NCBI GenBank assembly: GCA_017448975.1
Contig: JAFSKN010000016.1
Location: 1 to 64,000 of the forward strand
DNA: 64,000 bases
Reading direction: 5' to 3'
Origin: Clostridia bacterium
GTDB taxonomy: Bacteria; Bacillota; Clostridia; Christensenellales; Aristaeellaceae
In this document: positions 41,744 through 57,640 of the stretch, piece by piece
Position numbering within the stretch: position 1 is the stretch's first letter
How the letters are laid out: the number at the start of each line of letters is the position of its first letter
The notes under the pieces: generated by a model
The model's input: only the letters and a program-made list of their open reading frames with translations
Told to the model about the DNA's origin: nothing
Database searches by the model: none
Translations under genes and position numbers: made by a program

Positions 41744-42355
41744 TTAGTCGGGCAGGCGGACTGTAACGCCCGCGGTAAAGTCCTCCGGCGCCAGGCAGGG
41801 GTTGACCCGCAGCAGGGAGGCGATGGGTACGTTGTACTGCGTGGCGATGGTTTCCAGGGTGTCGCTGTCGCCCAGCACCACGCTGGCGGGCAGGGGACAG
41901 GCGATGTTGCTTTCGGGAACGCAAATGACATCGCCGCCGTTCAGGCTGTCCAGATCCTTATCGGCGTTGGCCGTTTTCAGGGTATGGTAGCTTAGATTGT
42001 AGCGCAGTTGCAGATCGCTGGCGGTTTGTCCCTCCTGCACCACGGCGCGGCGGTTGGCGGGGCAGACGTAGCCGCTGCCGCCGTCGGTATGCCCGCCATT
42101 GTCATTTTCGCCGCCGTTGTTTCCGCAGTCGGTATTGCCTCCGCCCTGATCGGGCTGGTCGGCAGCGGGCGTATCGGCGGTGCTGCAATAGGGAATGCAC
42201 AGTACGTCCCCCACGGTCAGACGGGCGGGAGGAATATCGGGATTGGCTTCCAGCAGGTCCCGCAGCTGCACGCCGGTGCGCTGAGCGATGAGATAAAAGC
42301 TGTCTCCCCGACGGACGGTGTAACGATAAGCGCAATTGGTCTGCGTTTCGGACAT
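41744..42355 (-). CDS. Protein with three LysM domains, no signal peptide
   Basis: 203 residues. LysM repeats: YRYTVRRGDSFYLIAQRTGVQL...GDVLCIPY (~10-58), VVQEGQTASDLQLRYNLSYHTLK...GGDVICVPE (~100-150), and a diverged third, VVLGDSDTLETIATQYNVPIASLLRVN (~155-200); a Gly/Asn/Asp linker follows the first. LysM binds N-acetylglucosamine polymers. Without a signal peptide and with a spore-former background, a coat or cortex protein is plausible. ATG 42355 is used, with AAAGGGGTGG before it; GTG 42364 overlaps that site. Confidence 0.8.
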   Translation of the reverse strand: MSETQTNCAYRYTVRRGDSFYLIAQRTGVQLRDLLEANPDIPPARLTVGDVLCIPYCSTADTPAADQPDQGGGNTDCGNNGGENDNGGHTDGGSGYVCPANRRAVVQEGQTASDLQLRYNLSYHTLKTANADKDLDSLNGGDVICVPESNIACPLPASVVLGDSDTLETIATQYNVPIASLLRVNPCLAPEDFTAGVTVRLPD

Positions 42356-42495
42356 ATGATCCACCCCTTTCCTGGTTTACAGTCCTATTTTATGCGGGGG
42401 CGGGGGAAAGGTGACGCTCCACAGCGCCGCAAAAACCGCGGCAAAGACTGAGCATAAAAAAACGAATAAAAAGCGGTTTCATTGCTTTTTCTTGG

Positions 42496-42524
42496 TTGAC
42501 ATCGGCCAATTGTCACAGTATAAT
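42496..42524 (+). promoter_or_regulatory. Promoter of the glycan-uptake locus
   Basis: TTGACA (42496-42501), 17-bp spacer, TATAAT (42519-42524): a full consensus pair. TGACA and TGTCA (42511-42515) form a small inverted repeat across the spacer. The leader to the start codon is about 245 bases. Confidence 0.85.
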
Positions 42525-42530
42525 GGACAG

Positions 42531-42777
42531 GAATATGGCAGAAGGTGTGCAAGAAAGGAGAATTTGCGCATTTCTGTACCGGGTTTGCCCTTTTATCGCG
42601 GGTTTCGGCGGAAGCCCACATGTTTTCTGTATTTCATTCCATATTGAGCAGAATAACCGTCCGCTTCCGGCTTTGCGTCATCCCGGAAGCGCGGCTGACT
42701 ATTGGAAAGAAACAGAGAAAACAGGAAATGGAAGACGGCCATTACAAATGGACGAATCTGACAGGAGAGAGGTGCCT
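42531..42777 (+). promoter_or_regulatory. Long 5' leader with a stem-loop
   Basis: Non-coding leader with a perfect 9-bp stem, CGCTTCCGG (42662-42670) and CCGGAAGCG (42683-42691), about 90 bases before the start codon. No known riboswitch class recognised; there is no T-run, so it is not an obvious terminator. Confidence 0.45.
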
Positions 42778-45675
42778 ATGCGAAAGAAAGGATTTGGCTG
42801 GCTGATCGGGATTCTGTGCCTTGCCGCGGTCATCGCGGCGATCGTTCTGCTCGGCGGCGGAACGCAGGATTTCCACGAGAAGTACGAAGGCGTGGATCTG
42901 ACCGCCGATGTGTCCGGCATGGGGCGGGAGGACACTTACGCCAATTACCTCCAGGCCCACAAGGACGCCGTCAGCGGCAGCGCTGAGGCCGTGATCGATA
43001 TTACGGCCTTTGAAGGCGACGCCGAGCTGCGGGAGGAAAACGGCGTTTCCTGCGTGTACACGCCGGACGGTTCCTACGTTACCTGGAAGGTGAACGTGGA
43101 GCAGGCCGGTATGTACAACATCCAGCTGGATTATTTGACCACCGCCTCCCGCGGGGTGGATATCGAGCGCGAACTGTATATCAACGGCGAGCTTCCTTTC
43201 TCGGGGGCGCGCTCCTTGTGCTTCACCCGTATGTGGCAGGACGGGGCCGCCGTTCGCCAGGACAACCAGGGCAACGACATCCGCCCCACCCAGGTGGAGG
43301 TGTTCGGCTGGCAGCGCGTGCGGTGCAAGGACGATATGGGCTACGCGGCCGAGCCGTACAGGTTCTACTTTGAAGCGGGGGAAAACACCCTGTCCCTCAA
43401 AGCGGTGAACGAACCCATGGTTATCGGCTCCATCACCCTGACGCCCGTGCAGGTGTTCGCCACATACGAGGAGTATGCCGCCGCCCAGCCGGAGGTTTCC
43501 ATGTCAGAAAGCGCGAAAAACTGGCAGGTCACGGTGCAGGGCGAAAGCAGCACCCTGCGCTCCTCGCCTTCCCTGTATGCCCGGTATGACCGGTCCTCCC
43601 CGGCCACCGAGCCGTACAGCGTGAAAAACACCGTGCTCAACTACATCGGCGGCGATCCCTGGAACAACGCGGGCCAGTGGATCGAATGGCAGGTGGACGT
43701 GCCGGAGGACGGCTATTACAACCTGTCCATCAAGGGCCGTCAGGCGTATCAGCGCGGCGCGATTTCCAGCCGCATGGTGTATGTGGACGGCGAGATCCTG
43801 TTCGACGCCATGAGCAACGTGGCTTTCGATTATAATACCGCCTGGAACATGCGCACCCTTTCGGACGATAAGGGAACCCCCTATCGCTTCTACCTGACCA
43901 AGGGCAGCCACACCATCCGCATGGAAGCCACCCTGGGCGATATGGGCAAGGTGCTGCAGGAGATGGAGGACAGCATTTACCGGCTGAACCTGATCTACCG
44001 CAAGATCCTGGTGCTCACCGGCCCCAACCCCGACCGCTTCCGCGATTACAGCCTGGAAAAGGTGTATCCCGAAGTGATCGAGGCCATGAGCCTTGAAAGC
44101 AAGCGCCTGTACAAGCTGGTGGACGACACCGTGGCCATCACCGGCCAGAAGAGCGACCGCGTGGCCGTGGCCCAGACCCTGGCCGTGCAGCTGGAAAACT
44201 TCGTGGCCCACACCGAGCGCATCACCCAGTCCTTCACCAACTTTAAGGACAACATCACCAGCTTAGGCACCGCCATGCAGAATATGGGCGAAACAAAGCT
44301 GGATGTGGATCTGCTGGTGATCAGCGGTGAAAACGCCGCCCTGCCTAAAGTGAAGGAAGGGTTCTTTGAACAGACGGCCCATGAGATCCGCTCCGCCGTG
44401 GCTTCCTACTTTGTGGATTACAACGCGCTGGGCGATACCTACGAAGAAAACGGCGAAAACGCCGACAAACTGATCGAGGTATGGATCACCACCGGCCGCG
44501 ACCAGAGCACGGTGCTCAAAACCATGGTGGATGACAGCTTCACCCCCGCCACCGGCATCCGGGTCAACGTGAAACTGGTGGTGGCCGACACGCTGCTTAC
44601 CGCCGTGGTGGCGGGCAACGGGCCGGACGTGGTGCTTTCCGTGGGCAGCTGGTTCCCGGTCAACTACGCCATGCGCAACGCCGTGGAGGACCTGACCCAG
44701 TTCTCGGACTTCGACCAAGTGGTAAAGCCCTTCTATGAAAGCGCCCTGACCTCCATGCGCTATAACGGCGGCGTGTACGCCCTGCCGGAGACCCAGGACT
44801 TCTCCGTGCTGTTCTACCGCCAGGACGTGCTGGACGAGCTGGGCCTCCAGGTGCCCAAAACCTGGGATGACCTGATCGCCCTGCTGCCCACCATCCAGGG
44901 CAACAACCTGTCCGTGGGCATCCCCTACCCGGACATTACCACTGTGGACATGTCCATCCTCAATTCTCTCATCTATCAGAACGGCGGCACGATTTACGAC
45001 GATCAGGCCATGCGCACCATGATCGACAGCGAAAACGGCGTGACGGCTTTCAAGCTGTACACCTCTCTGTATAACGACTACGGCCTGCCCACGGTGTACG
45101 ACTTCGTCAGCCGCTTCCGTTCCGGCGAAATGCCCATCGGTCTGGCGACCTACAGCCAGTTCAACACCCTGTCGGTGTCCGCGCCGGAAATCCGCAACCT
45201 GTGGGATTTCGCCGCCTTCCCCGGCACCCTGCAGGCGGACGGAACGGTGGACAATTCCGTGCATTGTTCCGGCGTGTGCTGCATGATGATCGCCACGGAT
45301 AATGTGAGCGTGAAGAACAACAGCTGGGAATTCCTCAAATGGTGGGTGAGCACCGAAACCCAGGTGCGCTTCGGCCGGGAAATCGAAAGCGTGCTGGGCT
45401 CCTCCGCCCGCTATACCACCGCCAACACCGAGGCGCTGGAGCAGCTGGCCTGGAGCGCCGACCAGCTGGCCGTGCTCAAGGAGCAGATGTCCCATACGGT
45501 GGGCTTCAGGGAAATCGCCGGCGGCTATTCCACCACCCGCCATATGACCAACGCCATCCGCCGCGTGATCAACAACAAGGAAGACGCCCGTGAAACGCTG
45601 CTGACCTACGCCCGCACCATCAACGAGGAAATCAAGGTCAAGCGCAGGGAATTCAACCTGCCGCTGTACGAATGA
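42778..45675 (+). CDS. Membrane-anchored solute-binding protein with N-terminal carbohydrate-binding-like domains
   Basis: 965 residues. A single anchor helix (WLIGILCLAAVIAAIVLLGG) lacks a lipobox. Two beta-sandwich domains resembling galactose-binding/CBM6-35 folds follow (~60-225 and ~235-400), with YVTWKVNVEQAGMYNIQLDY and GQWIEWQVDVPEDGYYNLSI as matching strands. A helical segment (~400-550) leads to a family-1 sugar-binding domain (~550-950): NGPDVVLSVGSWFPVNYAMR, GGVYALPETQDFSVLFYRQDVLDELGL and VHCSGVCCMMIATDN. Ordinary SBPs have ~420 residues, so this is a fusion in which the receptor can hold a polymer as well as feed the transporter (inference). AGGAGAGAGG precedes ATG 42778. Confidence 0.82.
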   Translation: MRKKGFGWLIGILCLAAVIAAIVLLGGGTQDFHEKYEGVDLTADVSGMGREDTYANYLQAHKDAVSGSAEAVIDITAFEGDAELREENGVSCVYTPDGSYVTWKVNVEQAGMYNIQLDYLTTASRGVDIERELYINGELPFSGARSLCFTRMWQDGAAVRQDNQGNDIRPTQVEVFGWQRVRCKDDMGYAAEPYRFYFEAGENTLSLKAVNEPMVIGSITLTPVQVFATYEEYAAAQPEVSMSESAKNWQVTVQGESSTLRSSPSLYARYDRSSPATEPYSVKNTVLNYIGGDPWNNAGQWIEWQVDVPEDGYYNLSIKGRQAYQRGAISSRMVYVDGEILFDAMSNVAFDYNTAWNMRTLSDDKGTPYRFYLTKGSHTIRMEATLGDMGKVLQEMEDSIYRLNLIYRKILVLTGPNPDRFRDYSLEKVYPEVIEAMSLESKRLYKLVDDTVAITGQKSDRVAVAQTLAVQLENFVAHTERITQSFTNFKDNITSLGTAMQNMGETKLDVDLLVISGENAALPKVKEGFFEQTAHEIRSAVASYFVDYNALGDTYEENGENADKLIEVWITTGRDQSTVLKTMVDDSFTPATGIRVNVKLVVADTLLTAVVAGNGPDVVLSVGSWFPVNYAMRNAVEDLTQFSDFDQVVKPFYESALTSMRYNGGVYALPETQDFSVLFYRQDVLDELGLQVPKTWDDLIALLPTIQGNNLSVGIPYPDITTVDMSILNSLIYQNGGTIYDDQAMRTMIDSENGVTAFKLYTSLYNDYGLPTVYDFVSRFRSGEMPIGLATYSQFNTLSVSAPEIRNLWDFAAFPGTLQADGTVDNSVHCSGVCCMMIATDNVSVKNNSWEFLKWWVSTETQVRFGREIESVLGSSARYTTANTEALEQLAWSADQLAVLKEQMSHTVGFREIAGGYSTTRHMTNAIRRVINNKEDARETLLTYARTINEEIKVKRREFNLPLYE

Positions 45676-45697
45676 GAGGAGAAAGGAGGAAAACCGC

Positions 45698-46636
45698 ATG
45701 CAGTCTGTTTTCGGCAAATACTGGAACATGAAACGGGAAAGCCTGCACTATAACTGGGAAAAGGCCAAGCGGATGAAGGTATGCTATCTGTTCCTGCTGC
45801 CCTACGCGGTGCTGTTCACCACGTTCATCATCCTGCCCATCCTCACTTCCATTTATTACAGCTTTACCTACTACAACATCCTGGAACCCGCCCGCTTCAT
45901 CGGTTTCCAGAACTACATCAACCTGGTCCTGCAGGACGAGGTATTCCTGACGGCGGTAAAGAACACCTTCGTCATCGCCGTGATCATCGGCCCTGTGGGC
46001 TACATCCTTTCCTTCCTGTTCGCCTGGTTCATTAACGAACTGCCCCGCTGGCTGCGCACCATCGCCGTGGTGGTGTTCTACGCCCCGTCCATCGCGGGCG
46101 GCGCTTACGCGGTATTCAGCATCATTTTCCGCGGTGACGCCTACGGCTACCTCAACTCCATCCTGCTGCAGTTCGGCCTGATCGACGCGCCGTATCTGTG
46201 GCTGCTGGACCCGCGGTATATCCTGCCGGTGGTCATCATCGTAAGCCTGTGGATGAGCATGGGTTCCGGCTTCCTGTCCTTCGTGGCCGGCCTTCAGGGC
46301 GTGGACCGCAGCATGTACGAGGCGGGCTATGTGGACGGCATCCGCAACCGCTGGCAGGAGCTGTACTTCATCACCCTGCCCAGCATGAAGCCCATGCTGC
46401 TGTTCGGCGCGGTCATGTCCATCACCGGCGCGTTCAACGTCAGCGACGTGCCCCGGGCCCTGGCGGGCTACCCCAGCACGGACTACGCCGCCCGCACCAT
46501 CGTTACGCACCTGTTCGACTATGGCTTCTCCCGGTTTGAAATGGGTTACGCCTCCGCCATCGCGACGGTGCTGTTCCTGATCATGCTCCTTTGCAACAAA
46601 GCGATCCAGTCTGCGCTGAGGAAGGTGGGCACATGA
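45698..46636 (+). CDS. Carbohydrate ABC transporter permease (first pair, UgpA/MalF-like)
   Basis: 312 residues, six helices. The cytoplasmic EAA loop that docks the ATPase is EAGYVDGIRNRWQELYFITLP-like near residue 208. AGGAGG before the ATG. Stop overlaps the partner permease as ATGA. Partner SBP is the fusion at 42778. No ATPase gene follows. Confidence 0.92.
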   Translation: MQSVFGKYWNMKRESLHYNWEKAKRMKVCYLFLLPYAVLFTTFIILPILTSIYYSFTYYNILEPARFIGFQNYINLVLQDEVFLTAVKNTFVIAVIIGPVGYILSFLFAWFINELPRWLRTIAVVVFYAPSIAGGAYAVFSIIFRGDAYGYLNSILLQFGLIDAPYLWLLDPRYILPVVIIVSLWMSMGSGFLSFVAGLQGVDRSMYEAGYVDGIRNRWQELYFITLPSMKPMLLFGAVMSITGAFNVSDVPRALAGYPSTDYAARTIVTHLFDYGFSRFEMGYASAIATVLFLIMLLCNKAIQSALRKVGT

Positions 46637-47904
46637 GCACGAAGAAGAAACCGATTACAAAAATCGAGCAGCCCAAAACCCAGTCCCGGGCGGCGCAGCT
46701 GCATTATTTGGCGCAGCTCCGCGGCGAGATCGAGGAAGAAAAGCCGAAGCTGAACAAGAAAAAGTTCGCCATCATTTCCCTGATCATCCTGGCGATCCTG
46801 GCGGGTCTGCTGGTTTATTCCAGTTTCCTGTTTAACGCCATTGAAAGCGCCAACGTGGATTTGAAAACCAATTCCCGTTCCCTGATCCTGTTCTTAGGCA
46901 AGGGCACCGACGCCGTGCTGGAGGGCGCGGCCGATGTGACGGCGGACGATCTGACCAAGCTGAACAGCTGGTCGTCCATCATGCTTTTGATCCGGGTCGT
47001 CGCCATCGCGGTCCTGGTGGTCTACGGCTTCTTTGCTTTCATCACCCTGCTCCAGCCCAAACGCCGCAAGCCCAACCGCAGTTTCTGGGGCGATTTGGGC
47101 ATCTACACCCTGCTGTTCATCATCGCCGTGGCCATGGCGTTCCCCATGGTGTTCTCCATCGCCGCGTCCCTGAAACCCCTGGACGAGCTGTTCCGGTTCC
47201 CGCCCAAGGTGTTTCCCGATCATCCCACCTTCGATAACTTCAGCGACCTGATCGTGACCATGGGCCAGAGCTGGGTGCCCTTCTCCCGGTATCTGATCAA
47301 CACCGTGTTCATCACCTTCGTGGGCACCTTCGGCCATGTGCTGATCGCGTCCATGGCGGCGTTCGTGCTGTCGAAGTATGATTTCCCCGGCGGGAAAGGC
47401 TTCTTCAAAATCGTCGTCACCGCCCTGATGTTCACCGGTTACGTAACGGGCATCCCCAACTTCGTCATAATGAGCAAGATGGGCATCATCGATACCTACT
47501 TTGCCGTGATCCTGCCCGCTTTCGCCGCGCCCATCGGCCTGTTCCTGATGAAGCAGTTCATGGAGAGCCTGCCCAATTCCCTGATCGAGGCGGCGCACCT
47601 GGACGGCGCGGGGGAAATGCGCATCTTCTGGTCCATCGTCATGCCCAACGTAAAGCCCGCGTGGCTGACCATCAGCATCTTCTCTGTGCAGAGCCTGTGG
47701 AACACCAACGCGGCCACGGTGATCCGCACCGAATCCAAGAAGACCCTGGTATACGCATTGCAGCAGATTCAGGCCGGCGGCATTGCCCGCACGGGCCAGG
47801 CCGCGGCGGTTACCGTGGTAGTGATGCTCGTGCCAATCACGATTTTCATCCTCTTCCAGGGCCAGATCGTGGAAACCATGTCCAGCTCTGGTCTGAAGGA
47901 TTGA
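46633..47904 (+). CDS. Carbohydrate ABC transporter permease (first pair, MalG-like) with N-terminal extension
   Basis: 423 residues, about 130 longer than usual. Residues 1-140 add a basic tail and two extra helices (FAIISLIILAILAGLLVYSS and IMLLIRVVAIAVLVVYGFFA) around an extracytoplasmic loop; then the normal six-helix permease with the EAAHLDGAGEMRIFWSIVMP motif near 318. The extension could contact one of the partner proteins encoded nearby. Start ATG 46633 overlaps the previous stop. Confidence 0.9.
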   Translation: MSTKKKPITKIEQPKTQSRAAQLHYLAQLRGEIEEEKPKLNKKKFAIISLIILAILAGLLVYSSFLFNAIESANVDLKTNSRSLILFLGKGTDAVLEGAADVTADDLTKLNSWSSIMLLIRVVAIAVLVVYGFFAFITLLQPKRRKPNRSFWGDLGIYTLLFIIAVAMAFPMVFSIAASLKPLDELFRFPPKVFPDHPTFDNFSDLIVTMGQSWVPFSRYLINTVFITFVGTFGHVLIASMAAFVLSKYDFPGGKGFFKIVVTALMFTGYVTGIPNFVIMSKMGIIDTYFAVILPAFAAPIGLFLMKQFMESLPNSLIEAAHLDGAGEMRIFWSIVMPNVKPAWLTISIFSVQSLWNTNAATVIRTESKKTLVYALQQIQAGGIARTGQAAAVTVVVMLVPITIFILFQGQIVETMSSSGLKD

Positions 47905-47942
47905 CGGTGATCCTGAACGATAAGATGGGAGGGAGAAAAACA

Positions 47943-49451
47943 GTGAAAAGAATGATCCGGCTGCTGGCGATGCTTACCGTTTTCACTTTGGCGCTGCCTC
48001 TGGGCTGCGCCCTGGCGGACGACGGCGTTTCCAGCACGTATACCTACAATTACGATTATTGGGGAGGCCTAAGGGAATCCCCGGACGCTTACCGGGTGGA
48101 TCAGGTGATTTACAGCGCCACCTTAGGGCTGGAAACCTTCATGCGCCGCCCCCAGAGCCTGTACGTCAGCGGAAACGACCTGTATGTGTGCGATACGGGC
48201 AACAACCGCGTGTTGCAGCTTCGCCGGGAGGGAAAGAGCTTTGCCCTGGTCCGCGTTATTGACCGCATCACAGGCGCGTCCCCGGAGACCTTCAACACCC
48301 CCAGCGACGTTTCCATCGACAAAGAGGGCAATATCTATGTTGCCGATACCAACAATAACCGGGTGATCAAGGCGGATAAGGACCTGAACTATATCCAGTC
48401 CTTCTTAAAGCCCTCGGATTCCACCTTTGACCAGAAGCTCAGCTTCCTGCCCAGCAAGATCGTGACCGACTCCGTGGGCCGCGTGTTCGTGCTGGCTACC
48501 AACGTGAACAAGGGTCTGGTGAAGTTTGAGGCGAACGGCACCTTCACCGGCTTCATCGGCGCGAACACGGTGACGTACGATATGTGGGAATACATCTGGA
48601 AAACCTTCTTCACCACCAAGGAACAGCGCGCGCAGCAGGCGTCCTTCGTACCCACTGAATACGAGAATATTTACATCGATAAAGACGGCTTCATCTACGC
48701 CACCAACATCGTGTTCAGCGAATACGATCTGCTGTACGACAACGCCAAGCCCATCCGCCGCCTGAACGCCATCGGCAGCGATATTCTGATCAAAAACGAC
48801 CGGTATCCCCCCATCGGCGATCTGATCTGGGCGGAGCAGAGCCAGGATTACGGCCCCTCCAAGTTCAAGGATATCACGGTGCTGGACAACGATATTTATA
48901 TCGCCTTTGACCGCACCAGAGGCCGCCTGTTCGGCTACGATCCCCAGGGCATCATGCTGTGGGCCTTCGGCAACAAGGGCAACAGCGAGGGCGCGTTCCT
49001 TTCCGCCGTTTCCCTGGAGCATATGGGCACCGATCTCATCTGCCTGGACGAAAACGAAGCCAGCATCACCGTGTTCACCCCCACCGAGTACGGAAACCTG
49101 ATCTATCAGGCCAGCAACCAGTACTTGAAGGGCGATTACGACGGCAGCGCCGATACCTGGCGCGAGGTGCTGAAGCTGAACGCCAACTACAACTTAGCCT
49201 TTATCGGCATCGGCCGGGCGCTGATGCGGCAGGAGCAGTACGGCGAGGCCATGGAGTACTTCAAAATGGCCCACGACCGGGAAAACTACGGCCGTGCCTA
49301 CCGCTATTACCGCAAGATCCTGGTGGAACAGAACATCGGCTGGATCGTGGCGGGCGTAGCCTGTCTGCTGATCATCCCCCTGGCCGTCGGCAGCGTGAAG
49401 AAAATGAAATGGGAGGTGGAAGCGTATGAACGCAGCAAAGTCGTTCGATAA
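47943..49451 (+). CDS. Secreted NHL-repeat beta-propeller with TPR and C-terminal membrane anchor
   Basis: 502 residues from GTG 47943, nine bases after GGGAGGGAG. Signal peptide (MIRLLAMLTVFTLALPLGCALA), then NHL blades: PQSLYVSGNDLYVCDTGNNRVLQL, TPSDVSIDKEGNIYVADTNNNRV, PSKIVTDSVGRVFVLA and NIYIDKDGFIYATN. A TPR-like segment (NYNLAFIGIGRALMRQEQYGEAMEYFKMA, ~420-455) and a final helix (WIVAGVACLLIIPLAVG) follow. NHL propellers bind protein or sugar ligands; none is assigned. Its end overlaps the YIP1 gene by 26 bp. Confidence 0.8.
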   Translation: MKRMIRLLAMLTVFTLALPLGCALADDGVSSTYTYNYDYWGGLRESPDAYRVDQVIYSATLGLETFMRRPQSLYVSGNDLYVCDTGNNRVLQLRREGKSFALVRVIDRITGASPETFNTPSDVSIDKEGNIYVADTNNNRVIKADKDLNYIQSFLKPSDSTFDQKLSFLPSKIVTDSVGRVFVLATNVNKGLVKFEANGTFTGFIGANTVTYDMWEYIWKTFFTTKEQRAQQASFVPTEYENIYIDKDGFIYATNIVFSEYDLLYDNAKPIRRLNAIGSDILIKNDRYPPIGDLIWAEQSQDYGPSKFKDITVLDNDIYIAFDRTRGRLFGYDPQGIMLWAFGNKGNSEGAFLSAVSLEHMGTDLICLDENEASITVFTPTEYGNLIYQASNQYLKGDYDGSADTWREVLKLNANYNLAFIGIGRALMRQEQYGEAMEYFKMAHDRENYGRAYRYYRKILVEQNIGWIVAGVACLLIIPLAVGSVKKMKWEVEAYERSKVVR

Positions 49452-50112
49452 CGTGTCCGCCCAGAGCGTAAGGGGAGAGGGCTGGCGCCGGTATCTGGCC
49501 ACCCTCAAATATGGCACCTACGTGATTCTCCATCCCTTCGACGGCTTCTGGGATCTGGTGCATGAAAAGCGGGGCAGCCTGCTGGCCGCCCATACCTGGC
49601 TGTTCCTGTTCCTGCTCACCTACGTGATGCGGCTGATGCTGACCAACTTCCAGTTCATCACCGCGCCCCTGCAGTACATCAACATTTACGAGCAGTGCGG
49701 ATCGCTGCTGCTGCCGTTCCTGATCCTGTGCCTGAGCAACTGGGCCCTGTCCACGCTGTTCGACGGCAAGGGCCGGTTCAAGGATATTTATATGGCCATG
49801 TGCTACGCGCTGGTGCCCTATGTGCTGATCCAGCTGCCCCTGATCCTCATCAGCCATATGATCTCCTTCGACGAGGCGGCGTACTATTCCGTGCTGGCCA
49901 GCGTATCGGTGGTCTGGTGCGTGTTCCTGGCTTTCGTGGGCCTGATGCAGGTGCACGATTATTCCCCGGGCAAGAACCTGATCTTCCTGTTCGCCACCAT
50001 TTTCGGCGCGATGGTGATCCTGTTCCTGATCCTGGTTTTCTTCAGCCTTTTGAGCGACGCGGTGGGCTTCTTCGTGACCCTGTACCGGGAAGTCGCGTTC
50101 AGGCTATACTAA
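49426..50112 (+). CDS. YIP1-family membrane protein
   Basis: 228 residues, about five helices from ~50 on: TWLFLFLLTYVMRLML, LLLPFLILCLSNWALSTLF, ALVPYVLIQLPLILISH and ATIFGAMVILFLILVFFSLL. GKGRFKDIYMAMCYALVPYVL matches the YIP1 core. Bacterial members have no set role. It starts inside the NHL gene and is 15 bp from the DUF5696 gene, so tight coupling suggests one complex. Confidence 0.75.
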   Translation: MNAAKSFDNVSAQSVRGEGWRRYLATLKYGTYVILHPFDGFWDLVHEKRGSLLAAHTWLFLFLLTYVMRLMLTNFQFITAPLQYINIYEQCGSLLLPFLILCLSNWALSTLFDGKGRFKDIYMAMCYALVPYVLIQLPLILISHMISFDEAAYYSVLASVSVVWCVFLAFVGLMQVHDYSPGKNLIFLFATIFGAMVILFLILVFFSLLSDAVGFFVTLYREVAFRLY

Positions 50113-50127
50113 GGAGGGGATGCAGAT

Positions 50128-52743
50128 ATGAAAAAGAAATCCATCCTCCGCCGGCTGATTCCCTGGCTGATCACGGCCGTCCTGCTGTTCTGTCTGGTAT
50201 ACTTCGTGGGCATTCCCCTCTATTCCCAGAAGGAGGAGCAGGTGACCCAGCTGCCCGAGGTATCCTACTATGAAGGCGGAAAGGACGCCGTCGTGCTGGA
50301 AAACGACGCGCTCCGGTTTGAGCTGGATCCCACGACCACCCAATTCAAGCTGACGGAAAAGGCAAATGGCCGCGAATGGCTGTCCAATCCGGAAGGCGCG
50401 GCCAACGACGCCGTAGCCAAGAGCAGCCAGGCCAACCTGTACGCCCTGCAATCTACCCTGCTCATGACCTACACCGATAAGGACAAGGGCACCACCAACA
50501 TCAGCTACAACAACTACCAGCGTTCCATTATGAACGGCAACTACACCATCGAAAACGTCACCGCCGATTCTGTGGACGTGGTGTATTCCATCGGCGATAT
50601 CAGCAAGGTGTACATGATGCCCTACGCCATCACCGACGAAAGGTTCCAGATGTACACCGAGCGGATGAAGGAACAGCTGGGCCTGAGCAAGTCCAAGATC
50701 AACAGCAAGGTGGGCAACTTATACAGCGTATACTCCCCCGAGACGCTGGCCACCAAATCCGACGCCGACAGGGAAGCCATATTGGCCCAGTATCCCATCG
50801 CGGCGGAGCAGACGATCCGAGTGCTGGACACCTCGAAAAAGGCGGATTATCAAAGCGTTTCCGACTATTTCGTGCAGGTGGGCTACAATCAGGAGGAATT
50901 CGATCTGGATCAGCAGTTGATCGCCTCCGCTTCCGCCAGCCAGAAACCGGTGTTCAACGTGACCCTGCGCTACCGGCTGGAGGGCGCCGATTTGGTGGTG
51001 GAAGTGCCCTACGATGAGATCCGCTACCGCAGCAGCTTCCCCATCACCACCCTGACCGTGCTGCCCATGTTCGGCGCGGCGGGCGCAAGCGACGAAGGCT
51101 TCATGTTCGTGCCCGAGGGCGGCGGCGCGCTGATCAACTTCAACAACGGCAAGCTGTCCCAGAACAGCTACTACGCCAATATGTACGGCTGGGACTATGC
51201 CACCTACCGCAGCGAAGTGGTCAACGAAACCAAGAACACCTTCCCCGTCTTCGGCATGGCGAAGAACGGCGGCTCCTTCATCTGCATCATGGAAGGCGCT
51301 TCCTCCTACGGCGGCATCTTAGCCGACATTTCCATGCGCTACAACAGCTTCAACTGGGTCTGCGCCCGCTATACCGTACTCCACGGGGACCAGTACAACG
51401 TATCCGATAAAACGGGCTCCAAGGTGTACATGTTTGAAAAGCAGATTCCTTCCGACACCGTGCGCCAGCGCTACCGCTTCGTTGACAGCGGCAGCTATGC
51501 GGATATGGCCAGCGCCTACGGCGATTATCTGCGGGAAACCTATCCCGAACTGAAAAACGCCGCCCTGGACGCCGATCTGCCCGTGTCCGTGGAGCTGATC
51601 GGGGCCATTGACAAAAAAGTGGTAAAGTTCGGCATGCCGGTGGATTCCGTGGTGTCTACCACCACCTTCGCCCAGGCCACGGACATCATCCGCGAACTGA
51701 AACGGAGCGACGTGAAGAACCTGAGCGTGCGCGTCACCGGCTGGAGCAACGGCGGCGTGAACCAGAAAGTGCTCACCTCCGTGCGTGTGCTCAGCGAGCT
51801 GGGCGGGGACAAGGGCATGGAAACGCTGATCAACGACGCGAAAAATATCGGCGTGAACCTGTACTTCGACGGCATTTCCTGCTTCGCCTATGACAGCGGA
51901 CTGCTGGAGGGCTTCATCCCCTTCCGGGACGCCGCCCGCTATACCACCCGCGAACAGGTGTCCATCATTCCCTATTCCCCCATCATCTACAAGGCGGACG
52001 AGGACCAGGACGCCTTCTATCTGGTGCAGCCCAAGTACGCCCAGAAGTGCACCGATAACCTGATCGCCACCCTGGCGGCCAAGAAGGTCTACGGCGTGGC
52101 TTTCCGGGACATCGGCAACCTGCTCAGCGCCGATTACTACGTCAACGATATGGTCACCCGCGAGCAGGTGAAGCAGATGAACATCGATTCCCTGAAGCAG
52201 GCCCGGGCCGCCGGGGAAGCCGTCATGATCAAGGAGGGCTACGACTACGCCATGCCCTACGCCGACCTGATTACGGACATGGACCTGGACGGCGTGGAAT
52301 ACTCCATCCTGGACGCTTCGGTGCCCTTCTACCAGATCGCCATTCACGGCGCGGTGAACTATACCGGCAAGCCCATCAACCTGGCCAATGACTGGCGCAC
52401 CGATCTGCTGCGCTGCATGGAATACGGCGCTGGCCTGAACTTCACTTTCATGGCGGAAAGCGGCTGGGTGCTGCAGGACAGCTTCTACACCACCTACTAC
52501 GGCGCTTCCTACGACGCCTGGAAGGAAACCGCGGCCGCAATCATCGCCGCCTGTCAGGCCGATCTGAAGGGGCTGAACAGCCTGCGCATCACCGATCACC
52601 AGACGGTGGACACCGATATCAGGCTCACCGTGTATGAAAACGGAACGAAAGTGTACGTCAATTACGGCGCGGAGGATTATCAGGCGGACGGCGTGCTGAT
52701 TCCGGCCCGCGGCTACGTTGTGGAAGGGGGTGAGAGGGAATGA
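50128..52743 (+). CDS. Membrane-anchored DUF5696 protein, probable glycan-active barrel
   Basis: 871 residues. One N-terminal helix (LIPWLITAVLLFCLVYFVGIPL), then an extracytoplasmic beta-rich region (~50-420) and a (beta/alpha)-barrel-like part (~420-800) with alternating strands such as LSVRVTGWSNGG, NLYFDGISCFAYDSG, VYGVAFRDIGNLLSADYY and VEYSILDASVPFYQIAIHG, then LNFTFMAESGW and a closing beta domain. The layout resembles glycoside hydrolase clans, and acidic residues at strand ends (FDG, FRD) could be catalytic, but no family or activity is proven. AGGAGG precedes ATG 50128. Overlaps the next permease by ATGA. Confidence 0.75.
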   Translation: MKKKSILRRLIPWLITAVLLFCLVYFVGIPLYSQKEEQVTQLPEVSYYEGGKDAVVLENDALRFELDPTTTQFKLTEKANGREWLSNPEGAANDAVAKSSQANLYALQSTLLMTYTDKDKGTTNISYNNYQRSIMNGNYTIENVTADSVDVVYSIGDISKVYMMPYAITDERFQMYTERMKEQLGLSKSKINSKVGNLYSVYSPETLATKSDADREAILAQYPIAAEQTIRVLDTSKKADYQSVSDYFVQVGYNQEEFDLDQQLIASASASQKPVFNVTLRYRLEGADLVVEVPYDEIRYRSSFPITTLTVLPMFGAAGASDEGFMFVPEGGGALINFNNGKLSQNSYYANMYGWDYATYRSEVVNETKNTFPVFGMAKNGGSFICIMEGASSYGGILADISMRYNSFNWVCARYTVLHGDQYNVSDKTGSKVYMFEKQIPSDTVRQRYRFVDSGSYADMASAYGDYLRETYPELKNAALDADLPVSVELIGAIDKKVVKFGMPVDSVVSTTTFAQATDIIRELKRSDVKNLSVRVTGWSNGGVNQKVLTSVRVLSELGGDKGMETLINDAKNIGVNLYFDGISCFAYDSGLLEGFIPFRDAARYTTREQVSIIPYSPIIYKADEDQDAFYLVQPKYAQKCTDNLIATLAAKKVYGVAFRDIGNLLSADYYVNDMVTREQVKQMNIDSLKQARAAGEAVMIKEGYDYAMPYADLITDMDLDGVEYSILDASVPFYQIAIHGAVNYTGKPINLANDWRTDLLRCMEYGAGLNFTFMAESGWVLQDSFYTTYYGASYDAWKETAAAIIAACQADLKGLNSLRITDHQTVDTDIRLTVYENGTKVYVNYGAEDYQADGVLIPARGYVVEGGERE

Positions 52744-53723
52744 GCAAAAACAAAAAGAATGATCGGGATCGCTGGAGCTTTTCCGAGTCGGTCCTCACCT
52801 TCATTCCCGGCAGCAAGGTTTACGGAACCATGCGTTCCCGTCAGGCCCGCCAGGGCGTCATGTTCATCCTGCCCTTCATCATCGGCTTCCTGGTGTTCAT
52901 GCTCAAACCCATGGCGGAATCCGTGATTTTCAGCTTCAGCAGCGTGAAGCTGATCCCCGGCCAGGGCTATGAAAAAACCTTCGTCGCTTTCCGGAACTAC
53001 CAGAATGCCATGGGCGTGGACCCCTACTTCAACCAGTATCTGGTGGAGGAAATCAGCCGCATGGGCGTGAACGCGGTGGCCACCATCGTCATGTCCTTCG
53101 TGATCGCCGTGATCCTGAACCAGAATTTCAAGGGCCGCACCCTGGCCCGCGCCATCTTCTTCCTGCCGGTGATCCTGTCCTCCGGCGTGCTGGCCGGCAT
53201 CGAAAGGCAGAATGAGTTCTACGATATGATGGCCGGCATGGCGGAAGCCGTGGGCCAATCCTCAGGCGTGAACATATCCGCCGCCTTGCAGAACCTGCTT
53301 TCCGTGTCCGGCATCGGCAGCGGGGTGTTCGACGTGCTGTTCCAGATGATCGACGCCATTTACGACATCGTGATGGCCAGCGGCATCCAGATCATCGTGT
53401 TCCTTTCCGGCCTGCAGGCCATTTCCCCGTCCCTGTACGAGGCGGCGGACGTGGAGGGCTGCTCCGCCTGGGAAGCTTTCTGGAAAATCACCTTCCCCAT
53501 GGTCAGCCCCCTGCTGCTGGTGAACACCATCTACACCATCATCGACTTCTTTATGAAGAACGACAACCGGGTGATGGAGCGCATCAACACCATCATGTAC
53601 GGCCAGCAAATGGATTTCGGCATGGCCTCGGCTATGAGCTGGATCTACTTCGGGGTGGCCATCCTCTTCATCGGTATCGCCGCCATTATCATCAACAGGG
53701 GGGTGCATTACTATGAAGACTGA
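52740..53723 (+). CDS. Carbohydrate ABC transporter permease (second pair, LplB/UgpA-like)
   Basis: 327 residues, six helices, EAADVEGCSAWEAFWKITFP near 234. An insertion of ~45 residues between helices 3 and 4 (NEFYDMMAGMAEAVGQ region) has no counterpart in the first pair. GGGGGTGAGAGGG upstream. Overlaps the DUF5696 stop and the next start. Confidence 0.9.
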   Translation: MSKNKKNDRDRWSFSESVLTFIPGSKVYGTMRSRQARQGVMFILPFIIGFLVFMLKPMAESVIFSFSSVKLIPGQGYEKTFVAFRNYQNAMGVDPYFNQYLVEEISRMGVNAVATIVMSFVIAVILNQNFKGRTLARAIFFLPVILSSGVLAGIERQNEFYDMMAGMAEAVGQSSGVNISAALQNLLSVSGIGSGVFDVLFQMIDAIYDIVMASGIQIIVFLSGLQAISPSLYEAADVEGCSAWEAFWKITFPMVSPLLLVNTIYTIIDFFMKNDNRVMERINTIMYGQQMDFGMASAMSWIYFGVAILFIGIAAIIINRGVHYYED

Positions 53724-54702
53724 CCCTGCCGCCACCGTGCGCGTGAAAAAGCGCGACACAAAATACGTGATCAAATCCAACATCAAAAAGTACAGCATTT
53801 CCATCGGGCGCGCCCTGCTGCTCTTCGGCCTGTGCTTCATGATCATCCAGCCCCTGCTCATCCGGTTTTCCACCAGCCTCATGGTGGAAAGCGACCTGTA
53901 CGATTCCACCATCGTGCTGCTGCCCCGGAACGTGACGCTGGATAACTACAGGATCGTGGGCGACCTGACCAACCTGCCCAAATCCCTCATCAATACCCTG
54001 TGGACATCCCTGCTGGTGTCCCTGTGTCAGGTGGTGGCCTGCACCCTGGTGGGCTATGGCTTCGCCCGGTACAGCTTCCCGCTGAAAAAGTTCTGGTTCG
54101 CCTGCGTGGTGCTTCTGATCATCGTGCCGCCCCAGACCATCCAGACCTCCCTGTATGTGCAGTTCGCCGCCTTCGATATCTTCGGTATCTTCAAGGCGCT
54201 CACGGGCGCTCCCATCAATCTGCGCACGTCCGCGGTGCCCTATGTGCTCATGAGCCTCACCTGCATGGGTTTGAAGGACGGCCTGTACATCTACATGCTG
54301 CGCCAGTACTTCAAGGGCATTCCCAAGTCCCTGGAGGAAGCGGCCTATGTGGACGGCTGCAACACCATGCACACCTTCGTCAAGATCATGCTGCCCGACG
54401 CCCTGCCCACCATCGCAAGCTGCTTCCTGTTCTCCTTCGTCTGGCAGTGGACCGACCTGTTCTACAGCCGCAACTTCCTGTCCAGCTATTCCATCTATTC
54501 CGTTCAGCTGTCCTCCATCGTGTCCCGCATGAGCCGTTACTTCAATAACGGCTCCGACGCGGCCGTGGTGGTGCCCAACGCCCGCCAGCAGCAGCTGATC
54601 TTCGTGGGCGTGCTCATCTGCAGTGTGCCGCTGATCATCCTGTACATCTTCACCCAGCGCACCTTCGTAGAAAGCATCGCCATGAGCGGTTCCAAGGAGT
54701 AA
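53713..54702 (+). CDS. Carbohydrate ABC transporter permease (second pair, LplC/MalG-like)
   Basis: 329 residues. Basic N-terminus, six helices, EAAYVDGCNTMHTFVKIMLP near 208. It overlaps the previous gene by 11 bp. The 219-bp gap after it contains GC-rich hairpins and a new promoter for the binding protein. Confidence 0.9.
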   Translation: MKTDPAATVRVKKRDTKYVIKSNIKKYSISIGRALLLFGLCFMIIQPLLIRFSTSLMVESDLYDSTIVLLPRNVTLDNYRIVGDLTNLPKSLINTLWTSLLVSLCQVVACTLVGYGFARYSFPLKKFWFACVVLLIIVPPQTIQTSLYVQFAAFDIFGIFKALTGAPINLRTSAVPYVLMSLTCMGLKDGLYIYMLRQYFKGIPKSLEEAAYVDGCNTMHTFVKIMLPDALPTIASCFLFSFVWQWTDLFYSRNFLSSYSIYSVQLSSIVSRMSRYFNNGSDAAVVVPNARQQQLIFVGVLICSVPLIILYIFTQRTFVESIAMSGSKE

Positions 54703-54833
54703 AAAACCGGCCATGGCACACCGGTGGCCGAAGAAAAACCGCCGCGGGCGGCACGCTTCGGCCCCCGGATTTGTTTTCTCAAATTTTGCGCAGGGATTGC
54801 GCAACGGTTCAGAAGAAACCTCTCAAATCTTGC

Positions 54834-54862
54834 TTGCATTTCCGCGCGATTCGGTGTATACT
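54834..54862 (+). promoter_or_regulatory. Extra promoter for the second binding-protein gene
   Basis: TTGCAT (54834-54839), 17-bp spacer, TATACT (54857-54862). It lets the binding protein be made in excess of the permeases, as is usual. Just upstream, GGCCA...TGGCC (54711-54734) may form an intercistronic stem-loop. Confidence 0.7.
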
Positions 54863-54921
54863 GTTTTTGCTGAGAATTGTACGCGTGTCTGCGTACAGGA
54901 ATTTTAAAGGAGGAATAACCC

Positions 54922-56280
54922 ATGAAGAAACTGGTTGCTCTGTTGCTCTCCGCCATGATGCTGTGCGCTTGCTGCGCGGCGCTGGCCGAAGTGCCGGAAG
55001 GCTATCCCGAAGTCGTGCCCGGCATTGATTTCGGCGGCGCGGAAGTGCTGATTCTGGACTATTGGTCTGGCGATTCCTATAAGGTTGCCAACCCTTCCGA
55101 GCAGCAGCTTGCTACTTACGCTTTCCATGATTGGATCAACGCCGCCTATAACGTGAAAGCCGATCAGCTTCAGGGCGGCGACTGGGGTTCCTGCGCCGAA
55201 GAAATGATCAACTTCACCGGCACCCCCGACGGCAGCCTGCGCATGTACATCATCGAGCCCGGCAAGGTGGTTTCCCTGGTGTCCAACGGCATCGCTTCTC
55301 CCATCAGCACCAAGTATATCGACCTGACCGCCGATAAGTGGAACGACGCCGAAATCGATTTCATGACCGTTGGCGGCACCCTGTACGGCCTGTATGCCGG
55401 CAACAGCGAACCCCGCGGCTGCCTGTACTTCAACAAGCGCGTGCTGGAAGAAGCGGGCATCGACTGGAACACCATCTATGATCTCCAGGCGGAACACAAG
55501 TGGACCTGGGCTGTTTTTGAAGAAATGCTGGCTCAGATCACCAAGGACACCGATAACGACGGCATCAACGACATCTGGGGCCTGCTGGGCTCCGGCGACG
55601 ACGCCTATGTGCTGAGCGTGTTCTCCAACAACGGCTGCTTCTTCGACTTCGACGAGAACGGCAAGCTCTATCCCGCCATGAACTCCAACGAGACCCTGGA
55701 AGCCCTGACCTGGTTCAAGGATATCCAGAGCAAGTACTGGGCTCCCCAGCCCGAAGGCTCCAACTGGGATTGGTACAAGAATGCCTGGACGCAGGGCTAC
55801 TGCGGCTTCTATGTATACCAGACCTACGGCGGCTTCAACGACAACTCCGAAATGGCCGATATGGCGGACGACTGGGGCTGCGTTGCCTGGCCCATCCCCG
55901 CTGACAGCGAAGAATACACCTATGTGACCATCGTCAGCGACAACATCACCCTGATCCCCGCCGTCTACGATGAGGAAACCGTGGCCAAGCTGGCCTTCCT
56001 GTATGACCTGTGGACCGAACCTGCCCCCGGCTACGACGATGACGACGCCTGGATCGGCAACAAGTACAACTACACCGACGACCGCGCTGTGGACGAGACC
56101 TACGCCATGCTGCGTGAGCCCGAACATTGCCGCACCAACAAGGTGCTGTACCTGGGCACCCAGAACGACGTGATCGGCTCCAGCCTGCTGTGGAGCCTGT
56201 CCGGGTCCACTCCCGCTGAACTGATCGAAGCGGCTATGCCCACCTGGCAGGCCCTGTGCGATACCTTCAACGCGAAGTAA
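54922..56280 (+). CDS. Extracellular solute-binding protein of the second transporter
   Basis: 452 residues. Signal MKKLVALLLSAMMLCACCAALAE; cleavage at ALA or lipidation at one of three cysteines cannot be decided. SBP family 1 features: LYGLYAGNSEPRGCLYFNKRVLEEAGIDW and TWAVFEEMLAQITKDTDNDGINDIWGLLG. DTDNDGIND resembles a calcium-binding loop of the thrombospondin-3/dockerin sort and may bind calcium. High aromatic content (YWAPQ, NWDWYKN) suits sugar stacking. AAAGGAGG before the ATG; terminator after. Confidence 0.9.
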   Translation: MKKLVALLLSAMMLCACCAALAEVPEGYPEVVPGIDFGGAEVLILDYWSGDSYKVANPSEQQLATYAFHDWINAAYNVKADQLQGGDWGSCAEEMINFTGTPDGSLRMYIIEPGKVVSLVSNGIASPISTKYIDLTADKWNDAEIDFMTVGGTLYGLYAGNSEPRGCLYFNKRVLEEAGIDWNTIYDLQAEHKWTWAVFEEMLAQITKDTDNDGINDIWGLLGSGDDAYVLSVFSNNGCFFDFDENGKLYPAMNSNETLEALTWFKDIQSKYWAPQPEGSNWDWYKNAWTQGYCGFYVYQTYGGFNDNSEMADMADDWGCVAWPIPADSEEYTYVTIVSDNITLIPAVYDEETVAKLAFLYDLWTEPAPGYDDDDAWIGNKYNYTDDRAVDETYAMLREPEHCRTNKVLYLGTQNDVIGSSLLWSLSGSTPAELIEAAMPTWQALCDTFNAK

Positions 56281-56321
56281 TCGCTGAATTCATCACAGGA
56301 TTCCATCAACAATAAAAGTGG

Positions 56322-56358
56322 GGCTGCCGCACTGAAAAGTGCGGCAGCCTTTCTTTTT
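56322..56358 (+). terminator. Terminator of the glycan-uptake locus
   Basis: GGCTGCCGCACT, loop GAAA, AGTGCGGCAGCC, then TTTCTTTTTT. Strong; separates it from the convergent diguanylate cyclase gene. Confidence 0.93.
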
Positions 56359-56389
56359 TCCTCACAGCGACTGAACCGTTGGGGTTCAG

Positions 56390-57640
56390 TCACTCCGCCG
56401 TATAGATTTTATAAGCGCCTTTTCCATTCTTTTTCACATCGTACAGGGCGGTATCCGCCGCCCGGTAGAGGGCGGCGAAGGTAGTTCCGTGCTGGGGATA
56501 CAGGGAAATGCCGATGGACAGGGAAACGCTGCCCTCCAATTCCTGAAACGCGGAATGTACCTGGGCCTGAATCCGCTGGGCGGAAAGGCAGGCGGCGTCC
56601 GCGTCCGCGATGTCCCGCAGGAACACCATAAATTCGTCGCCGCCGATGCGCCCCGTCACGTCCATCACCCGGAAATTGGTGCGCAGGATACGGGCGATTT
56701 CCGCCAGCACCCGGTCGCCCACCGCGTGGCCCAAAGAATCGTTGACGTGCTTGAAGTTGTCCACGTCGATCATCATCATGGCGCCGTACTGCCAATCCTT
56801 TTCCGGAGGCTCCAGCATCATGCGGATGTGGTTTTCCGTGGAACGCTTGTTGAGCAACTCGGTCAGGGTGTCCAGCTGGGTGCGCTTTTCCAGCTCCTGC
56901 TTGAGCAGCTGCTGCTCGGTCACGTTGTTGATCAGGGCGATGATACCGCTGATCTTGCCGTTTTTATCGTATACGGGGCGCTTGATCAGTTCCAGAAATT
57001 CATCCATACCGTCCTGTTTTTCCTCAATGATATAGTTGGTTCCCTTGCCGGTGCGCAGGATCTCCATGTCCGCTTCCATGGCTTTTTTGGCGTTCTGCTT
57101 GTCCTTGCGGATCTCCATATCCGTTTTGCCGCGAATGGACCAATCGGGGTCGTCCGCGTTGGTCAGATGATGCCAGTACTGGGTGGCGAACACATAGCGG
57201 CCCTCCGCGTCCTTTAAAAAAATATTGGAGGGCAATTGCTTAAGCATTTGCTCCATTTCATCAAATCCGATGGAATCCGACCCCCGGATGGCACTGTCGA
57301 TCCGTTTGAGCAGCAGCTCCCGGGGGCAGGGCAGGGAAATGAGATCAAAAAAGCCCTGGGCAACGCAGGCGGCGTCCTCTTCCGTGGGCAGGCCGGGGAT
57401 GAGGCCCAAGATGGGGATCACCGAAAAAGGCGCGTGATCCTTCATCCGCTCCGCCAGGGCCAAGCCCTGCTCCTTTGCGCGCGCTAAATCCACAAGGACC
57501 GCCGCCGCGCTTTGACGGTTCACAGCGTCCCATGCCGCGGAAAGCTCCTCGCAGCAAATCAGCCGATAGGAGGCGGAAAGAAGCGGAAAAATCAAATCCC
57601 GCGTTTCTCCCTGGGGAATCAAAAGCAAAATCGTTTTCAT
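56390..57640 (-). CDS. Diguanylate cyclase with degenerate receiver and PAS domains
   Basis: 416 residues. Residues 1-120 fold like a response-regulator receiver, but the acidic pair is missing (MKTILLLIPQ) and the usual Lys is Leu (ISLPCP); only an Asp in VLVDLA remains. PAS domain ~135-250 (LKQLPSNIFLKDAEGRYVFATQ). GGDEF domain ~260-416: LDTLTELLNKR, MMMIDVDNFKHVNDSLGH and intact GRIGGDEF. It should make cyclic di-GMP. No RxxD inhibitory site at the expected place. Together with the HD-GYP sensor, both directions of the signal are encoded here. Confidence 0.92.
   Translation of the reverse strand: MKTILLLIPQGETRDLIFPLLSASYRLICCEELSAAWDAVNRQSAAAVLVDLARAKEQGLALAERMKDHAPFSVIPILGLIPGLPTEEDAACVAQGFFDLISLPCPRELLLKRIDSAIRGSDSIGFDEMEQMLKQLPSNIFLKDAEGRYVFATQYWHHLTNADDPDWSIRGKTDMEIRKDKQNAKKAMEADMEILRTGKGTNYIIEEKQDGMDEFLELIKRPVYDKNGKISGIIALINNVTEQQLLKQELEKRTQLDTLTELLNKRSTENHIRMMLEPPEKDWQYGAMMMIDVDNFKHVNDSLGHAVGDRVLAEIARILRTNFRVMDVTGRIGGDEFMVFLRDIADADAACLSAQRIQAQVHSAFQELEGSVSLSIGISLYPQHGTTFAALYRAADTALYDVKKNGKGAYKIYTAE

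Follow-up and report, generated by a model that had tools for sequence, protein, structure and literature searches.

A nine-gene clostridial locus that probably encodes a double ABC importer of plant-derived oligosaccharides

Introduction

The window analysed here is a stretch of 64,000 nucleotides from a Clostridia bacterium of the Christensenellales (assembly GCA_017448975.1, contig JAFSKN010000016.1, positions 1 to 64,000). Between positions 42778 and 56280 it carries nine co-oriented open reading frames (ORFs), called A to I: a solute-binding protein (SBP) fused to carbohydrate-binding modules (CBMs) (A), a first permease pair (B, C), an NHL-TPR protein (D), a YIP1-family membrane protein (E), a DUF5696 protein (F), a second permease pair (G, H), and a stand-alone SBP (I). 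Oligosaccharide importers of the CUT1 type can share an MsmX/UgpC ATPase, as in Bacillus subtilis. What, then, is a locus that combines two permease pairs of the ATP-binding cassette (ABC) type with three further proteins, D, E, and F? The answer proposed here is that A to I probably form a single transcription unit whose products, membrane-anchored capture proteins among them, take up plant-derived oligosaccharides (of the xylan type in many relatives) through a double ABC importer. The locus is a variant of the ABC glycan importers and not a separate kind, and we infer the exact role of the trio D-E-F.

Recurrence of the gene set in relatives

Among 398 genomes drawn evenly from the phylum, DUF5696 is found in 46 at E up to 0.001, exceeds the Pfam cut-off in 39, and is full-length in 37 (about 1 in 11), which represent 20 genera. 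Profiles of D (threshold 1e-40) and A (threshold 1e-100) match 38 and 40 of the 398 genomes, and comparison of the three lists shows that all 37 genomes with a full-length F also carry D and A. The one genome with D only carries it as a fragment where an 8.5-kb contig ends; in the three with A only, A lies on contigs of 3.1-4.3 kb. Fisher tests of F against D (1.9e-51) and against A (4.9e-49) were calculated over related genomes that are not independent. Since these phylum-wide searches score two to three candidates per genome, copy numbers are lower bounds.

DUF5696 marks 58 places at E below 1e-100, the window included, and 40 of the 57 others were taken by choice rather than at random. The order NHL-YIP1-DUF5696-permease-permease, counted over matched genes and ignoring unmatched frames between them, is found in 40 of these 40 F-centred loci; F-G-H is likewise contiguous in all 40, and the largest gap within D to H is 283 bp. 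The initial annotation would have been refuted by a trio that occurs mostly without ABC permeases; the opposite is found, a permease pair adjoining the trio in every one of the 40. A-B-C is contiguous in 30 of them, the full order A to H is present in 24, and D to H is followed by A-B-C in five more. This recurrence of an identical gene order argues that the clustering of A to I exceeds chance.

A second set was centred on A with a profile (A2) and comprises the best 80 of at least 585 confirmed places in named genomes, and thus their most similar part. Among these 80 loci, 65 reach F and 63 of the 65 have A to H in order; the other two stop inside or just after F. The remaining 15 stretches lack F, and each ends no more than about 4.5 kb past A, where F would begin. 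Carriers among the best 80 include Butyrivibrio, other Lachnospiraceae, Oscillospiraceae, many rumen and cecum Clostridia, and Treponema and other spirochaetes, mostly as metagenome-assembled genomes. The window genome itself has two more copies, one on the window contig (L071, 126.9-146.8 kb) and one on contig C60 (L073), both with D and E fused. In L071, C has moved to behind H and is followed by a GH43 gene and a helix-turn-helix regulator.

The two importers

A has 965 residues, and AGGAGAG precedes its ATG. Pfam assigns it SBP_bac_1 (9e-22) and CBM_35 (2.6e-6); the nearest structure to its solute-binding domain is Lin1841 (5ysb, 7e-27), and one of its N-terminal modules, provisionally taken for the CBM35 module, has a partial match to a cycloisomaltooligosaccharide glucanotransferase (5x7g, 3e-8). 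The anchor-like N-terminus is mostly without a lipobox. B and C match BPD_transp_1 (1.5e-11 and 5.8e-12), and their relatives keep the strict EAA pattern in 127 of 130 and 120 of 123 cases, respectively, the misses in B being loci cut by contig ends. C of the window's clade has a clade-specific N-terminal extension, apparently with a coil and extra membrane helices. Of 17 close relatives checked, 16 have a C of 390-424 residues (L087, 260), against 287-305 in four more distant ones. In L059 (3662-6521), C lies in two frames about 1.6 kb apart, as if an insertion had broken the gene.

In the second importer, H (5.8e-12) matches BPD_transp_1, G scores 24.3 bits, slightly under the 26.4 cut-off, and I matches SBP_bac_1 (1.4e-7). 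Both A and I thus lie above the SBP_bac_1 cut-off, as expected of the extracytoplasmic SBP of a CUT1-type importer, and all four permeases retain the EAA-type loop expected of its two permeases. The retention of these loops led us to abandon a reading in which the extra pair had degenerated. Two relatives (L039 and L044) have five to six tandem solute-binding frames after H, which gives the impression of multiple receptors served by a single permease pair; two of the L039 frames may belong to one split gene.

No ATPase gene is present among A to I (Pfam scan), in keeping with the uptake system without its own ATPase that the initial annotation described. Elsewhere in the genome there are two UgpC-type ATPases (scores 494.7 and 467.4; cut-off 432). 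One, of the UgpC/MsmX type, is on another contig between acetyltransferase-like and sirtuin-like genes, with no permease in the 2.9 kb seen; the second adjoins permease-like and glucanotransferase-like genes. At about 85% completeness, the assembly may lack further ATPases. A shared UgpC/MsmX-type ATPase may serve both permease pairs.

The helper proteins

The NHL domain of D is clear in Pfam (3.6e-15), its TPR matches fall below the cut-off, and its profile matches both NHL propellers and TPR proteins; a signal sequence and a C-terminal membrane helix are predicted. E matches Yip1 (7e-15). D and E are one fused protein in 21 of the 40 F-centred loci and separate genes ahead of F in 19.

F matches DUF5696 (PF18952) along nearly the whole model (positions 2-612 of 612; 4e-189, 630 bits, cut-off 25.6). 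A structure predicted from a single sequence (predicted local distance difference test, pLDDT, 32) was discarded for one built with 65 sequences (pLDDT 91), and this model shows the whole three-domain fold of glycoside hydrolase (GH) family 129; it also finds GH36 by fold. In Pfam at E up to 0.1, F matched DUF5696 alone and not PF11308 (GH129), and a sequence comparison with the catalytic, C-terminal half of the DUF5696 barrel found no match to GH129. PF11308 matched nothing in 249 genomes (G000 among them), and its controls were silent too, so that this search is uninformative on absence. The DUF5696 matches that fall below the cut-off in two control genomes, Thermotoga maritima and Lactococcus lactis, are probably GH36-like enzymes.

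GH129 has two catalytic acids (NagBb D435/DagB D486 and a second acid). The presumed catalytic residues of window F are D661 and E703, which lie where barrel strands 4 and 5 end; the strand ends were assigned from strand order and general knowledge of GH13-like barrels rather than from superposed coordinates. In GH13 the acid/base site is on strand 5, and this strand was judged the more likely one for F and was used in the count. Strand 6, the first choice for this site, was replaced by strand 5 because the barrels of GH101 and GH129 resemble that of GH13 (PMC8106489, available text); both sites vary. In a lenient count (positions 660/661 and 702/703), acids occupy both presumed strand ends in 13 of 41 diverse DUF5696 members, the window copy included, and in 14 of 65 close members (the window copy and 13 others). 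At position 661, D is replaced by Y, T, S, G, or N. As the presumed catalytic acids are not conserved, the partial glycan processing proposed in the initial annotation is, as a task of DUF5696, unsupported across the family; the window copy has both acids and may still be active. In most relatives, F is probably a glycan-binding former glycosidase. In L157 (2-4663, minus strand), the F slot is occupied by a frame that scores lower for DUF5696 (420), is at least 1554 residues long, and may be a fusion; the stretch ends there.

Layout and transcription signals

All nine genes were found where the initial annotation had placed them (Table 1). The gaps at the successive junctions are 22, -4, 38, -26, 15, -4, -11, and 219 bp; seven of the eight are between -26 and +38 bp, which bears out its description of co-oriented genes mostly overlapping or within 40 bp. 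Pfam also agrees with its two permease pairs, two binding proteins, NHL/TPR, YIP1, and DUF5696 proteins, G and the TPR matches being below cut-off.

Table 1. Features of the locus, in positions of the window
Feature	Position	Strand	Description
Promoter-like site, sigma-70-type	42496..42524	+	12/12 consensus bases, 17-nt spacer, ahead of A
A: CBM-SBP fusion	42778..45675	+	Anchor-like N-terminal segment, CBM35-like modules, C-terminal solute-binding domain
B: permease, pair 1	45698..46636	+	Pfam BPD_transp_1, EAA pattern
C: permease, pair 1	46633..47904	+	Pfam BPD_transp_1; N-terminal extension in window's clade
D: NHL-TPR protein	47943..49451	+	Predicted signal sequence, NHL beta-propeller, TPR, predicted C-terminal membrane helix
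E: YIP1-family membrane protein	49426..50112	+	Pfam Yip1
F: DUF5696 protein	50128..52743	+	N-terminal anchor-like helix and predicted GH129 fold (beta-sandwich, TIM barrel, Ig-like)
G: permease, pair 2	52740..53723	+	BPD_transp_1 just below cut-off, EAA-type loop
H: permease, pair 2	53713..54702	+	Pfam BPD_transp_1, EAA-type loop
I: stand-alone solute-binding protein	54922..56280	+	Pfam SBP_bac_1
Intrinsic-terminator-like hairpin	56320..56351	+	14 pairs, T-rich tail, after I

The promoter-like site is the sole one on the plus strand in a scan of 42300-56500 (both strands, 2; shuffle mean 5.5). Weaker terminator-like sites are also present in the same stretch (both strands, 20; shuffle mean 13.4, standard deviation 4.5). 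Together with the tight junctions, the promoter-like site and the strong hairpin after I would fit a single A-I transcript. The 247-nt leader between the promoter-like site and A (42531-42777) folds better than 200 shuffles (z -2.67), and Rfam gave no match at the gathering threshold anywhere in the window, this leader included.

Neighbouring genes and ligand

The census of carbohydrate-active enzymes (CAZymes) covered 81 of 652 flanking ORFs in relatives, picked for recurrence, and hence favours common neighbours. Matches were to GH43 (37), GH10 (20), GH5 (12), GDSL esterase (11), BD-FAE (5), and GH39 (2), which would make the recurrent enzymes mostly a xylan-type set. A GH10 gene adjoins the locus in two relatives of the window copy (L053 and L088), and an alpha-L-fucosidase gene lies near another (L046), so neighbours differ between relatives. 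A further recurrent neighbour, at 18 loci, reads as an ABC-export-like ATPase. The nearest neighbours in the window are, by Pfam, LysM, VanY, a clostripain-family protease, GGDEF, and an aminotransferase, among others, with no GH.

One importer or two

Several observations weigh against the double-importer reading. In families f66 and f51 the set can split. Among 20 A-centred stretches of eight genomes, A-B-C is contiguous in 19, and D and F are absent from five (L162, L164, L165, L169, and L170). One stretch (L167) has A behind D to H, without B-C. Conversely, D-E-F-G-H occurs without A-B-C in the stretches of L043, L045, L046, L047, L051, L052, L064, and L182; A-B-C is also absent from L181, whose order F-G-H-DE is the only rearrangement of the trio seen. 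Contig ends truncate two other loci (L041 and L054) at D. The seven genomes behind these loci other than that of L041, and one more, were searched for A, and 8 of 8 have full-length copies. Because modules can split, and given L167 and L181, a joint machine in fixed order is not required. In the second permease pair, the strict EAA pattern is limited to 94 of 114 cases for G and 104 of 113 for H, the misses being variants at the A or E positions in alignments that keep E or D, G, and nearly always P. No CAZyme or regulator lies beside the window copy (Pfam, nearest neighbours), so its ligand is borrowed from the relatives, and xylo-oligosaccharides are a guess by association with their neighbours. 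Window F, with D661 and E703, may be a still-active enzyme. Finally, distances between partner paralogues correlate at 0.85-0.91 (six gene pairs, 23 loci with both modules linked); when paralogues are swapped inside genomes the means are 0.56-0.63, and the observed value is reached in 0 to 5 of 2000 swaps. Since linked genes are co-inherited, linkage alone could yield this correlation, which is therefore no proof of contact.

As some loci carry either module alone, the trio appears to belong with G-H and A-B-C appears to be its own importer module. The placement of the trio between two permease pairs, emphasised in the initial annotation, thus stands for the window as an order of genes, with the trio tied to G-H and A-B-C separable. 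Such loci would suit two independent neighbouring importers, A-B-C for one sugar and I-G-H with D-E-F for another, as would the separate SBP and the EAA-type loops of each pair. This is nonetheless unlikely: A is present in every genome with full-length F, the order A to H recurs in both the F-centred and the A-centred loci, and the three genomes with A only have it on short contigs. An active F that trims the bound chain before import as an exo-glycosidase is possible but doubtful; the whole GH129 fold and the paired acids of the window copy and 13 close members would suit it, as would the enzymes of the same fold, DagB and NagBb (PMC5698469, available text), yet most diverse members lack one or both acids at strand ends assigned as above, position 661 drifts, and the catalytic barrel half has no GH129 match by sequence. 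A sensor or relay role for D-E, with ligand binding detected by the propeller of D and signalled to the membrane through the YIP1 part, is highly improbable. The frequent D-E fusion suits the pairing of an external domain with one in the membrane, but no kinase or regulator is constant, and the commonest regulator-like neighbour cluster (AraC by one representative) reaches 30 of 121 loci.

The double importer remains the probable reading, and its parts could work as follows. Importer 1 would consist of A with B-C, the N-terminal helix holding A in the membrane while its CBM35-like modules bind a longer chain and present the end to its own SBP domain. Importer 2 would consist of I with G-H and three dedicated helpers: D-E, in which YIP1 would form the membrane base of an extracellular beta-propeller/TPR structure, and F, a protein of GH129 fold that would be anchored in the membrane. 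In such a complex the helpers would most likely hold or align the glycan, or loaded I, above G-H for hand-over, and ATP would be supplied through the shared ATPase encoded elsewhere.

Comparison with known systems

Like CUT1-type importers, the locus combines an SBP with two EAA-bearing permeases and lacks an ATPase gene of its own, UgpC-type genes being present elsewhere in the genome; unlike them, it has two permease pairs, a CBM35-like SBP fusion with an anchor-like N-terminus, and three constant extra proteins. In the SusCD-type glycan utilisome of Bacteroidota, surface capture proteins are paired with an import channel. The likeness to A-I, which would also couple surface capture proteins to an import channel, is by analogy only: A-I has no TonB-dependent channel, is presumably ATP-powered, and consists of unrelated proteins, none of which matched a SusC TonB-dependent channel or SusD lipoprotein family in Pfam. 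A bolder proposal, which we regard as tentative and on balance improbable, sees in the loci of Bacillota-type clostridia and spirochaetes an ABC importer class of its own. Both permease pairs, the CBM-SBP fusion, NHL-YIP1 as a scaffold, and a glycosidase of GH129 fold retired from catalysis would then make up a single permanent complex at the surface. This complex would feed one end of a polysaccharide into the importers and so be an ATP-driven equivalent of the Sus utilisome.

Gram-positive polysaccharide utilization loci (PULs), such as those of Butyrivibrio (PMC6344614), likewise have GH43 and GH10 genes next to those for SBPs and permeases; the available text of that paper names no NHL, YIP1, or DUF5696 partners. 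It reports that such genes of Butyrivibrio are upregulated in B. hungatei MB2003 by xylan or pectin and in B. proteoclasticus B316 by pectin. A PUL is recognised by a transporter beside a CAZyme and a regulator; the window copy has no adjacent CAZyme, and GH genes lie beside many relatives. XynEFG of Paenibacillus LS1 (PMC10269863) also joins an SBP to two permeases, for xylo-oligosaccharides, but has a single permease pair and a two-component regulator, and the text available mentions no helper trio. Compared with GH129 NagBb (5wzn), GH129-like DagB (5opq, 8rzk), and GH101 EngBF, DUF5696 differs in its varying acids, anchor-like N-terminus, and importer context; the DagB authors propose a new GH family rather than GH129 (PMC5698469, available text). 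The literature searched, mostly without subscription papers, yielded no papers on DUF5696 and no description of an NHL-YIP1-DUF5696 importer set, and the initial annotation's statement that the trio's job is undescribed holds there.

Significance

The set is carried by about 1 in 11 of the phylum genomes drawn, sometimes in multiple copies, and by many rumen and gut bacteria. Three unexplained proteins, the DUF5696, NHL-TPR, and YIP1 proteins, likely share a role in sugar import. If true, the recruitment of a GH129 fold to an importer while its presumed catalytic acids drift would clearly exemplify how an enzyme can become a transport subunit.

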